A stretch of 39,308 nt of DNA from Lactobacillales bacterium (lineage in GTDB: Bacteria; Bacillota; Bacilli; Lactobacillales; Streptococcaceae): positions 1 through 39,308 of the forward strand of contig JAITQW010000049.1 in assembly GCA_031288715.1 (NCBI GenBank). Reading direction: 5' to 3'. The notes beneath the pieces were generated by a model, which was not told the DNA's origin, did no database searches, and saw only the letters and a program-made list of their open reading frames with translations. Shown here piece after piece: positions 5,334 through 36,718 of the stretch (position 1 is the stretch's first letter; every line of letters begins with the position of its first letter). A program made the position numbers and the translations under genes.

Positions 5334-5694
5334 ATTTTAAGTAGGATTCCCTCTAATTTCCAAAAATTACGAACTACCTTAATGATTGACAAACGTTTCT
5401 CCTGTGAGTGATTTTTAATCGCGAGATGCCGAAATGCGAGAAGCGTGACAGAGTATAGGTAGGATGTACTTTTGGTTCATCTGTAAAGATATCGTGAACA
5501 GACTCTTACGTGGCTAATTACCTAAAAAGATTTTTACAAATTTATGAATGATTTTCAAAGTAGGTAAGTTTAAAGTTAATGAAATTGTATTGAGAAAATA
5601 AAGAAAATGTATGTTTCAATTTTTTTATGAGGCTAACATATATGGATGGAAGCCTCATAAATATTGACACATACCAAAGTAAATTGGAGTTGGC
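5334..5694. other. Gap between nusG and the flippase gene
   Basis: This 361-bp gap is filled mostly by composite repeat C. Near 5630-5665 a perfect 11-bp inverted repeat (TTTATGAGGCT / AGCCTCATAAA) with a 16-nt loop precedes the flippase gene. TTGACA at about 5664 has no convincing -10 partner. No coding gene is seen. Confidence 0.6.
5361..5510. repeat. Composite interspersed repeat, copy C
   Basis: The unit runs CGAACTACCTTAATGATTG ... GACAGAGTATAGGTAGGATG ... TTTTGGTTCAT and ends with GTGAACAGACTCTTAC. Outer arms (CTACCTTA/TAGGTAG) and inner arms (ACGTTTCTC/GAGAAGCGT) would form nested hairpins. The core to 5480 aligns over about 120 bp with the reverse complement of 36546-36718, and its outer parts align with 33066-33136. 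Confidence 0.8.
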
Positions 5695-21198: not shown

Positions 21199-21359
21199 GG
21201 TTTTCTGTGTAAAAAATTGGAAGACTATAATGGCAAGGAAAGCCTTGCACTGGCTTTGAAGCGAGAGGTTGCGACACACGCGGATGCATTGTCATATAGC
21301 AATGTCGGTATTTTCGTGGAGCTATGCCTATTTTCAAAATAGACGAAGGAGGAGACAAG
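21199..21359 (+). promoter_or_regulatory. Structured 5' leader of the S10 operon
   Basis: Three hairpins are visible: GCAAGG-AAAG-CCTTGC (21233-21248), GCATTG...CAATG (21286-21304) and CTATTTT-C-AAAATAG (21328-21342), the last just before the rpsJ SD. The segment around 21261-21327 (GCGAGAGGTTGCGACACACG onward) recalls rpsJ leaders of other Lactobacillales, from memory. A role in r-protein or growth control is inferred. No terminator-type U tract is present. Confidence 0.5.
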
Positions 21360-21668
21360 ATGGCAAAACAAAAAATTCGTATCCGCTTAAAAGCTTACGA
21401 ACATCGTATTTTAGATCAAGCAGCGGAAAAAATTGTTGAAACAGTACAGCGTACAGGAGCGAGCATTTCTGGTCCGATTCCTTTACCTACTGAGCGTTCA
21501 TTGTATACAGTGATTCGTGCTACGCATAAATACAAAGATTCACGCGAACAATTTGAAATGCGCACACACAAACGTTTAATTGATGTGTTAAATCCAACAC
21601 CAAAAACCGTTGATGCGTTGATGAAATTAGATCTTCCATCTGGTGTGAATGTTGAAATTAAATTATAA
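21360..21668 (+). CDS. rpsJ: 30S ribosomal protein S10
   Basis: The 102-aa protein starts [20 protein letters not shown] and is the canonical first gene of the S10 operon. S10 binds 16S rRNA in the 30S head and, as NusE, takes part in antitermination with NusG. AAGGAGGAG lies just before ATG 21360. The frame is open 12 codons further upstream, but that extension overlaps the SD and leader hairpin and is rejected. Confidence 0.98.
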
Positions 21669-26369: not shown

Positions 26370-27098
26370 ATGATGAAAAAAAAGTTATTTAATTTGGTAA
26401 TGATAGGTATTGCTTCGGCAGTCTATTCTCAAAAAGTAAGCGCAGGAATCGATGAGTTTGCAGAAACTGCGAATCAAAAGATTCGTTTGAGAGATAGTAT
26501 GCCACTTTATCTCCAAAAGCATTCAGCGTGGAAAGATGTTCATTACGGCCAGGAAGACATACTTGAGGAAGCAACCATTGGAAAATGTGGATGTGGGATT
26601 TGTTCCATGGCTATGGTGGCCTCTTTCCTAGAACAAAGAGAAATTACACCTAAAGCGATCGCAGATTTCTTTCTTCAAAAGCCTCTTGAAGATTATTATG
26701 TATCTGGTATTGGAACAAAGTGGAACAGTTTTAAAATTTTAGCAAGTCATTATGGATTTAAGATATCTAAATTAGGTATTTATAGTAAAACTGAATTCAA
26801 AGAAAATGGAAAGCCTAAATTTAAACGCCCTGGTTTTGATCAACTTAAAAAACATTTAGCAATTGGAGAGGCGGTTATTGTTTTTTTTAGTGGCCAGGGG
26901 GGGACGTTTACGAATAGCGGACATCTTATGGTTTTAAAACAAGATAATTCGGGAAAAATAAGAATGTTTGATCCCGATGATTCTGAAGAAAAATACCATT
27001 ATCAAAGGGAAATTGATATTGATCGAGATCTTGTTGATACTTCGAAATCAAAGATAATTCGTTTATGGTCCTTTTCAAAAGAAAGGAGACTTTGTTAA
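26370..27098 (+). CDS. Exported C39-like cysteine peptidase/hydrolase inserted in the ribosomal operon
   Basis: The 242-aa product starts with a signal peptide (MMKKK, hydrophobic core, then YSQKVSA before the likely cleavage). The mature part fits the Peptidase_C39_2 layout: C75 in [13 protein letters not shown] (compare CGPxSxAM), H185 in NSGHLMVL, D201 in MFDPDD, a Cys-His-Asp triad. No C39-typical ABC transporter is attached, so it is not a bacteriocin-exporting peptidase. It begins 55 bp after rpmC with its own GGAAGGAG SD. Its last codons contain the rpsQ SD, and its TAA overlaps the rpsQ ATG by one base. Substrate unknown; a secreted protease or amide hydrolase acting at the wall is possible. 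Confidence 0.75.
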
Positions 27099-27458: not shown

Positions 27459-27827
27459 GTGATCCAAGCGGAAAGTCGTTTGAAAGTTGCAGATAATTCT
27501 GGTGCACGTGAAATTTTGACCATTAAAGTTCTTGGCGGTTCAGGTCGTAAAACGGCAAATATCGGGGATGTTATTGTGGCAACAGTGAAACAAGCTATTC
27601 CAGGTGGAATGGTGAAAAAAGGAGAAGTGGTGAGAGCTGTGATTGTTCGTACAAGATCGGGAGTTCATCGGACAGATGGTTCTTATATTAAATTTGATGA
27701 AAATGCGGCCGTGATTATTCGTGATGATAAGAGTCTACGAGGAACGCGAATTTTTGGGCCAGTAGCTAGAGAGCTTCGAGAAAGAAACTTTATGAAGATT
27801 GTCTCTCTTGCTCCAGAGGTATTGTAA
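27459..27827 (+). CDS. rplN: 50S ribosomal protein L14
   Basis: The 122-aa protein ([20 protein letters not shown] ... [20 protein letters not shown]) binds the 30S interface and is the docking site of the silencing factor RsfS. The start is GTG behind GGGGAGGAG. An exported amidase gene, not rplX, comes next. Confidence 0.98.
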
Positions 27828-27884
27828 GTTATTTGAATAAATGTTAGTAATGTAACTAGTAATTGATAGGAGGTTTGTTCAAGC

Positions 27885-29222
27885 ATGTTGAGCTTTAAAC
27901 AGGTTCTAAGGAAGAAGTGCATATTCTTTATTGGAATAGTTGCAATTTTGAGTGTTTCATCGGCTAATGTAAAAGCTATCGAGCCATCTGATGTTAAGAT
28001 AAGCGTTTCGCAATTTGAGGCAACCATTAGACAAGTCGTCTTAAGTGAAAATTGGGGAAAATCACAGCATGATGTTAAGGAAATATTTACTCAGTTTTGT
28101 TCTAAGTTAACAAGCCAAGATATACAAAAATTAGGTTCAAGCATTGATGGGGTAAGAGAACAGATTGTAAGATTTGAAGGTAGTGAATGTCCTCAACCAA
28201 GAGCAGCCTATGCATTGCTTGCCAATTTGGAATTTTTAATTGATGGTTTAGGATTTCAATCTTTAAGGAAGCCTTTGGACGATTTAGACGTAGAAATAGA
28301 GCATCGTTGGCCTGATGCAAAAAATTGGACTCAGGGAATTGCTGGTAGGCGTGTAGGAAATCCCAAAAGTGTGACGATTCATAACACTGCGGGAAGTAGC
28401 GATGCTGCTTTTTATGAAGAATTTATTAAAAGAAAAGACGCTGCAACAGGTTTTGCCCATGAGTATCATGATGATAAAACTGTATTTTGCGCTGAACCTG
28501 TGGAAAATAAAGCTTGGCATTGTGGAAATCCTGAAGGAAATAGAGATTCCATTGGATTAGAAATTTGCAAGGACAAATGTAGTGATCCAGCTCCGTTTCA
28601 GGAAGCAGAACGACGTGTTATTGTTCGCACTAAAGAAATTTTAGATCAATTTGGACTTCCTGCGGATGAGGCTACCATCCGGTTTCATTGTGAGTGGTCG
28701 GCTACTCAATGTCCATGGCGGACAATTCAGGATCATGGTGGAAATATAGCAAGTGCAAAGGCGTGGTTTATTGGAGAAGTTCGTAGGCTTATACAGGCAG
28801 AAAGCGTTAGAAGACCCGTAGGAGAATTTTTACTAGTACCAGTTCGAGTTGCTAGTACTTCTCGAGTACCATCTGTCAAGCGTAGACGTTGTTATAGTGT
28901 AGATGAATGTGCTATCCTCTTTGGTAAATTTTTGCAAATTCGTTGTAATGAATTAGCTCCTGCTGGTTTTTCATGGAAGGATAATGGAATTCTGTGTGAT
29001 TGGGTTGAAAAAATAGCACATGATAGAAGTGTTGTTCCAAGGAAAGAATTTAGCGTTGGAGACAGCTTTGCTTTTAAGCCTGACTTGTTAGTTGGTGTTC
29101 AAGGAGAATCTGTAAGAGATGTAGGTAGAGATTGGTGTCAATTTGTGTTTAAAGAGCCAGCGGAACCATTTAATAGTGTTTGGCTGTCTGTAGACGGGGT
29201 AGATTCTCTTATTTATGAGTAA
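27885..29222 (+). CDS. Exported, cysteine-rich N-acetylmuramoyl-L-alanine amidase (Amidase_2/PGRP type)
   Basis: The 445-aa product has a signal peptide (MLSFKQVLRKK, hydrophobic core, cleavage near NVKA at 31), an N-terminal helical region (35-135), a central Amidase_2 domain (about 138-300) and an unrecognised C-terminal region (310-445). The zinc ligands fit T7 lysozyme: H166 (TIHNTAG), H268 and C276 (FHCEWSATQC), with the same 8-residue H-to-C spacing. The domain would cut the muramyl-L-alanine bond of peptidoglycan. Fourteen cysteines are unusual for a Firmicutes exported protein. AGGAGG precedes the ATG. It sits between rplN and rplX on the operon strand. Confidence 0.85.
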   Translation: MLSFKQVLRKKCIFFIGIVAILSVSSANVKAIEPSDVKISVSQFEATIRQVVLSENWGKSQHDVKEIFTQFCSKLTSQDIQKLGSSIDGVREQIVRFEGSECPQPRAAYALLANLEFLIDGLGFQSLRKPLDDLDVEIEHRWPDAKNWTQGIAGRRVGNPKSVTIHNTAGSSDAAFYEEFIKRKDAATGFAHEYHDDKTVFCAEPVENKAWHCGNPEGNRDSIGLEICKDKCSDPAPFQEAERRVIVRTKEILDQFGLPADEATIRFHCEWSATQCPWRTIQDHGGNIASAKAWFIGEVRRLIQAESVRRPVGEFLLVPVRVASTSRVPSVKRRRCYSVDECAILFGKFLQIRCNELAPAGFSWKDNGILCDWVEKIAHDRSVVPRKEFSVGDSFAFKPDLLVGVQGESVRDVGRDWCQFVFKEPAEPFNSVWLSVDGVDSLIYE

Positions 29223-29228
29223 ATTGTA

Positions 29229-29268
29229 TTTTCATAAATTAGTGATCATGTAAGCTAATTTATGAAAA
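29229..29268. terminator. Perfect 14-bp inverted repeat after the amidase gene
   Basis: TTTTCATAAATTAG (29229-29242) and CTAATTTATGAAAA (29255-29268) are exact inverted copies with a 12-nt loop, starting 7 bp after the amidase stop. No U tract follows, so it may protect or process mRNA, or only partially stop transcription, since essential ribosomal genes lie downstream. Confidence 0.6.
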
Positions 29269-29303: not shown

Positions 29304-29609
29304 ATGTTTGTAAAAAGGGGCGATCGAGTGAAAGTGATTGCTGGGAAAGATAAGAACAAGGAAGGTCTTGTATTAACTGCTTTTCCTAAAAAAGAGAAAG
29401 TCATTGTTGAGGGGATCAACAAGATTAAGAAACATCAGAAAGCCAATAATACTCATCCACAGGGTGGAATTATTGAAAAAGAGGCACCGATTCATGTTTC
29501 TAATGTCCAAATTTTAGATAAGAATGGTGTAGCTGGTCGTGTAGGGAAAAAATTCAAAGACGGAAAAAAAGTACGATACAATAAAAAAACGGGTGAGGTT
29601 TTAAATTAA
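29304..29609 (+). CDS. rplX: 50S ribosomal protein L24
   Basis: The 101-aa KOW-domain protein ([21 protein letters not shown]) starts 50S assembly. ATG 29304 follows AAGGAGGAG with 7 nt. The frame is open to 29262 but lies over the hairpin and lacks an SD there. Confidence 0.97.
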
Positions 29610-30182: not shown

Positions 30183-30437
30183 CTAAGAATCTGTTAACAA
30201 CTAGCACATGAAATCACGTCAAACGCATGAAGAATTTTTGGGTTCACAGAGAATGGTTTTAAGCGATTTAAAATTTTTGAACGATTTTTTTACAAAACAT
30301 TCGCTTAAAATACTTCTCTCACGCTTATTTTTTCTCATAATTCTTTCATGCGTTTGGCGTGACATGAAATGTGTCATAGATTATGTAGAATATACCTTTG
30401 ATTTAGTTTATATAGAGATCGTTAACAAACTCTAAAA
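30183..30437. mobile_element. MITE-like element (about 254 bp) between rplE and rpsN, copy H
   Basis: The ends are TAAGAATCTGTTAAC (30184-30198) and GTTAACAAACTCTAAAA (30421-30437), inverted relative to each other. Internal long arms 30214-30236 and 30339-30362 pair with one mismatch and one bulge (TCACGTCAAACGCATGA...). An inner TTTTAAGCGA / TCGCTTAAAA pair (about 30257 and 30301) completes a long hairpin. It encodes no transposase. A 75-codon frame inside (30208-30435) is only the product of the inverted repeat. It lies in a transcribed essential operon. Confidence 0.75.
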
Positions 30438-33030: not shown

Positions 33031-33140
33031 GAATCTATTAATTTGTCTTCATATTATAGATGGTGAAATTGCGAACTACCTTAACGATTGGCACATGAAG
33101 TTTGACAGAGATTAGGTAGGATGTTTTTAGTTCATACATG
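33028..33140. repeat. Composite interspersed repeat, copy E (rpmD-rplO gap)
   Basis: The left end TATAAGAATCTATTAAT (from 33028) overlaps the rpmD stop. The core CGAACTACCTTAACGATTGG ... GACAGAGATTAGGTAGGATG (33071-33123) and TTCAT match copies C and D. The inner hairpin of C and D is replaced here by GGCACATGAAGTTT, related to a segment of copies D and H. Confidence 0.75.
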
Positions 33141-36545: not shown

Positions 36546-36718
36546 ATGAACCAAAAGGTACATCTTATCTAACCTCTGCCACACTTCATATGCCAGTAGT
36601 TAAGATAGTTTGCACCAAGAGGTATCTACCTAACCTCTGTCACGTTTCTCGTGTTTCGCGATTAAAAATCACTCACAGGAGAACCGTTTGTCAATCGTTA
36701 AGGTAGTTGCAATTTTTG
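36546..36718. repeat. Composite interspersed repeat, copy D (rpmJ-rpsM gap, inverted)
   Basis: Read on the minus strand it starts CAAAAATTGCAACTACCTTA and carries the same nested hairpins as copy C, including GTGAGTGATTTTTAATCGCG. A second, shorter unit (AACTATCTTAACTACTGGCA ... GCAGAGGTTAGATAAGATG) lies in tandem and ends TTTTGGTTCAT. With flanks it fills nearly all of the 291-bp gap. Confidence 0.8.

Follow-up and report, generated by a model that had tools for sequence, protein, structure and literature searches.

Few gene clusters are as conserved as the spc operon, and the locus described here raises the question of why a gene encoding a cell wall hydrolase should be placed inside it, and what the encoded enzyme might do. 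The window (the whole stretch of DNA that was analysed, 39,308 nucleotides) corresponds to contig C22 in an assembly of 1.27 Mb that consists of 53 contigs and is 88.6% complete. The preliminary description had proposed an exported zinc amidase of the autolysin or antibacterial type, embedded at an unusual site between rplN and rplX, and this view is supported by the analysis, with export predicted from the N terminus of the translation.

The amidase gene and its surroundings

The reading frame at 27885–29222 (forward strand) starts with ATG, encodes 445 residues and is a genuine gene. Its placement in the spc part is as previously described, with a complete ribosomal-protein gene on either side (rplN and rplX), outside any phage lysis region. 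The features of this area are as follows:

26370–27098, forward strand: Peptidase_C39_2-like gene for a secreted hydrolase, the second insertion, located between rpmC and rpsQ (Pfam, E=2.8e-9)
27459–27827, forward strand: rplN (L14), complete, upstream neighbour of the amidase gene
27868–27873, forward strand: AGGAGG, Shine-Dalgarno-like, 11 nt 5' of the amidase ATG (direct reading)
27885–29222, forward strand: amidase reading frame, 445 residues (ORF list, Pfam, PHROGs, translation)
27885–27977, forward strand: signal-peptide-like N terminus, residues 1–31, with the AxA-type site VKA/IE (translation, by eye)
27978–28310, forward strand: N-terminal extension, residues 32–142, predicted helical, low to middling pLDDT (Pfam, AlphaFold2, Foldseek, genus search)
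28359–28715, forward strand: Amidase_2 domain (PF01510), residues 159–277, ligands H166, H268, and C276 (Pfam, alignment, AlphaFold2, Foldseek)
28884–29216, forward strand: ZoocinA_TRD (PF16775), residues 334–444, wall-binding domain (Pfam, 2ls0 sequence match, Foldseek)
29229–29268, forward strand: A+T-rich 14-bp hairpin, 3' of the amidase gene and 5' of rplX (z = -2.8)
29304–29609, forward strand: rplX (L24), complete, downstream neighbour of the amidase gene, with its ATG at 29304

Promoter-like matches are at chance level (16 vs 14.7 in shuffled sequence), and no clear terminator was found for the amidase gene, all terminator-like sites listed falling within genes in a scan that is blind to the A+T-rich hairpin at 29229–29268. 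Neither kind of signal is in excess, and the gene probably shares a transcript with rplN and rplX. An S10-Clostridia ribosomal leader (Rfam RF03136, 41 bits) is located at 21248–21366, upstream of rpsJ.

The C39-like gene carries GCG and SGH motifs and a signal-peptide-like start. Among the genomes read, an insert between rpmC and rpsQ is present only in that of the window, and the tblastn relatives of the protein elsewhere in the order are 24–32% identical to it.

A MITE-like element is positioned between rplE and rpsN (30207–30370); its body of ~148 bp (30215–30362) has 27-nt imperfect terminal inverted repeats and CATGAAAT on both sides as an 8-bp target duplication, with five other copies aligned at 92–99% and a sixth at 83%. 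The frame orf75 (30208–30435), considered as a third inserted gene, overlaps this element and was rejected; it is probably not a gene. A short dispersed repeat (AACTACCTTAA.GATTG, later TAGGTAGGATGT) occurs at 33066–33124, 5364–5391, 5440–5480, and 36689–36715, and has many copies in the genome, some of them ~100 nt apart. Gaps of ~280–350 nt between ribosomal genes are also seen in two congeners, namely in G004 (L058, 10119–10464 and 10999–11283), with no convincing ORF, and in G003 (L057, 9773–10055), with short ORFs of 42 and 52 residues.

Domains, zinc site and cysteines

The N terminus of the amidase, MLSFKQVLRKKCIFFIGIVAILSVSSANVKA/IE, resembles by eye a Sec signal peptide, by means of which the protein would be exported. 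The extension that follows (residues 32–142) lacks a Pfam match of meaningful E-value (the best is DIL, 0.11), has no fold match among the Foldseek matches listed, and gave no match in any of the four remaining genomes of the genus.

The catalytic domain belongs to Amidase_2, not to M23, with a Pfam score of 52.2 bits against a curated cut-off of 26 (E=9.9e-14). The PHROGs matches are endolysins, the best being phrog_670 (E=7e-37), and both the Amidase_2 and the phrog_670 matches are well beyond chance. In an AlphaFold2 model built on a 21-row alignment (mean pLDDT 69, pTM 0.47), confidence is high in the amidase region (block pLDDT ~79–98 for residues 151–300), moderate in the C-terminal domain, and weak in the N-terminal part, which is helical. 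The top Foldseek match is a prophage amidase of E. faecium (8c4d, E=1.2e-14). His166, His268, and Cys276, exactly the ligands named in the preliminary description, are invariant over the 21 rows; these three residues should hold the zinc ion, and the MurNAc-L-Ala bond is the predicted site of cleavage.

The C terminus, which had been called unrecognised, is in fact a known domain. Profile and structure searches of this region identified residues 334–444 as ZoocinA_TRD, with 66 bits against a curated cut-off of 27.4 (E=3.9e-18) over model positions 1–106 of 106, and the same region matches the recognition domain of zoocin A in the PDB (2ls0) by sequence, as well as by fold (E=7.9e-5).

Cysteines account for 14 of the 445 residues (3.1%), as compared with 0–1.4% in the 16 other reading frames of the window. 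The count of 13 in the mature part was confirmed (positions 72, 102, 202, 213, 228, 232, 269, 276, 336, 342, 354, 371, and 418), the fourteenth, Cys12, being located within the signal peptide. These 13 cysteines were rejected as proof of disulfides, since five of them (Cys213, Cys228, Cys269, Cys276, and Cys354) are at positions shared with phage lysins, Cys276 being a zinc ligand. The other eight are distributed two, two, and four per region (Cys72 and Cys102; Cys202 and Cys232; Cys336, Cys342, Cys371, and Cys418) and could pair. A search for Dsb-type oxidases in the 88.6%-complete genome gave no DsbB-family gene, and for Redoxin one sub-threshold partial match.

Related genomes and the history of the junction

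Across 204 surveyed genomes, the wider ribosomal operon cluster was altered infrequently, although the rate was raised on the ancestral branch of the streptococci (PMC8046335). In our order-wide survey of L14 and L24, the two are adjacent in 41 genomes among the matches listed, a count that covers genomes with a joined L14+L24 match. Where the surroundings of L14 were read at gene level, a gene-sized insert between rplN and rplX is present only in the genome of the window (G000) and in G004, of the same genus, in agreement with the suggested unusual placement; the junction is bare in the congeners G001 and G003, with spacings of 31 and 68 nt. By profile match, PF01510 is absent from G001, G002, and G003.

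The gene at the G004 junction is related to that of the window. It consists of three frame pieces with two apparent frameshifts, compared to the window gene one by one with none joined, and is arranged as a signal-peptide-like start, an unalignable region, and amidase stretches with identities of 45% and 59% to the protein of G000; a profile search found no ZoocinA_TRD in it. The frameshifts and the missing domain indicate that the gene is dispensable or decaying in G004, or else that the G004 assembly contains errors. The two amidases are sisters in the tree (bootstrap 93).

The species tree is (G000,(G003,(G001,G004))), and, given the bare junctions of G001 and G003, one gain would have to be followed by two losses. 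The simplest history, suggested by this arrangement, would be that an ancestor of the genus, which has small genomes and probably belongs to the Streptococcaceae, captured a phage-type lysin once, in the spc part of the operon, before the genus diversified, with two later losses and decay. Independent capture at one junction is a less simple alternative, to which the lack of alignment between the two copies over their first 142 residues gives some room. The proposal of a foreign origin is upheld by the phage-lysin type of the catalytic domain, seen in PHROGs and in the tree, whereas a recent arrival is not, since the base composition of the gene, including GC and GC3, is host-like.

ZoocinA_TRD is present in 12 of 196 genomes of the family, and the enzymes bearing it in the genomes seen are mostly phage lysins. 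A viral scan using the TRD protein of G010 returned zero relatives. One genome of the host family carries a zoocin A-like gene combining M23 and the TRD, and the lysis region of a second member of this family is 78–86% identical to Streptococcus phages; on these grounds the host family is probably Streptococcaceae. In a genome of another family (L007, 1489–1950), a signal-peptide-like start is followed by ZoocinA_TRD with no catalytic domain.

Proposed role and comparison with known lysins

Secreted wall hydrolases act as autolysins or weapons. We propose, with moderate confidence, that the protein is a secreted, growth-coupled amidase of phage type with zoocin-type wall recognition, most likely a bacteriolysin directed against related bacteria. 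The recognition domain would bring the enzyme to the wall, where its phage-endolysin-type domain would use zinc to cut the MurNAc-L-Ala bond, and co-transcription with rplN and rplX should make its output track growth. An antagonistic, zoocin-like role is favoured by the accessory distribution of the gene, which is not conserved in the genus, by the rarity of the TRD in the family, and by the presence of this domain here and its absence from the G004 copy. A point against it is that the frames on either side encode ribosomal proteins and, on reading, showed no dedicated immunity gene. We lean towards a bacteriolysin over an autolysin without strong conviction; because most enzymes that carry the TRD in these genomes are phage lysins, the role may also be that of a residual lysin or an autolysin.

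As an autolysin, the enzyme would trim the wall of its producer in growth and separation, the operon site coupling trimming to growth rate. Growth-coupled expression fits this somewhat unlikely role, but the absence of PF01510 from three congeners and the broken copy in the fourth do not correspond to a housekeeping role conserved across the genus, and the lack of a clear disulfide oxidase in the 88.6%-complete genome also argues against it. It is improbable that the gene is a tolerated, passive relic of a phage lysin that came to rest in the operon and has little or no function. The broken, TRD-less copy in G004, the bare junction of two congeners, and the MITE that has landed in the same operon agree with such a relic, yet the 445-codon frame is intact, its catalytic residues are kept, and dN/dS between G000 and G004 is of purifying type (~0.28 and ~0.10 on two matched catalytic stretches, with dS saturated). 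Chimerism or contamination, which the preliminary description had considered and an assembly of 53 contigs at 88.6% completeness might invite, is extremely improbable and was discarded in view of the relative that occupies this junction in the independent genome G004, the host-like GC and GC3, and the intact neighbours on either side.

A literature search found no paper that links the spc operon with a wall hydrolase. If a lysin is kept there in more than one species, an external wall hydrolase would be naturally coupled to ribosome production, and the amidase gene would then serve as a test of how conserved operons accept cargo. A broader proposition, that the ribosomal-protein operon of this lineage repeatedly took in secreted wall hydrolase genes (the amidase and the C39-like gene) and retained them, serving as a site from which external enzymes are expressed in step with growth, appears doubtful.

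Comparison with the Amidase_2 phage endolysins (the phrog_670 group and 8c4d) reveals a common catalytic domain and zinc ligands, as well as the N-terminal motif GxAGRR.G.PK found in many of them. Unlike these endolysins, the amidase of the window has a signal-peptide-like N terminus and a helical extension, with no phage genes nearby, and includes CPW in place of the CPH of most aligned relatives. The endolysin of Streptococcus phage Javan253 likewise combines Amidase_2 with ZoocinA_TRD, but is phage-encoded, 299 residues long, and has no N-terminal extension; the same pairing is present in one viral contig of IMG/VR. In the available excerpts of a survey of 256 Streptococcus phage endolysins, ZoocinA_TRD accompanies catalytic domains of Amidase_5 or NLPC/P60 types, not Amidase_2 (PMC12294143), and, taken with the Javan253 and IMG/VR cases, these excerpts indicate that the pairing exists but seems uncommon. 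Zoocin A of S. equi subsp. zooepidemicus, a weaponized wall hydrolase (PMC12352652), has the same C-terminal wall-recognition domain (PF16775), although it is an M23 endopeptidase (PMC12352652, PMC7341270) and the protein of the window is an amidase. Endolysin LyJH307, which lyses S. bovis, also uses ZoocinA_TRD as its cell-wall-binding domain, whereas its catalytic domain is NLPC/P60 (PMC7341270) rather than Amidase_2. Phage lysins provide precedents for each of the two domains and for their pairing. The amidase of the window differs from them in its signal-peptide-like start, its helical extension, and its place in the operon; it represents a known kind of enzyme, at an unusual address that it has in common with one related species.
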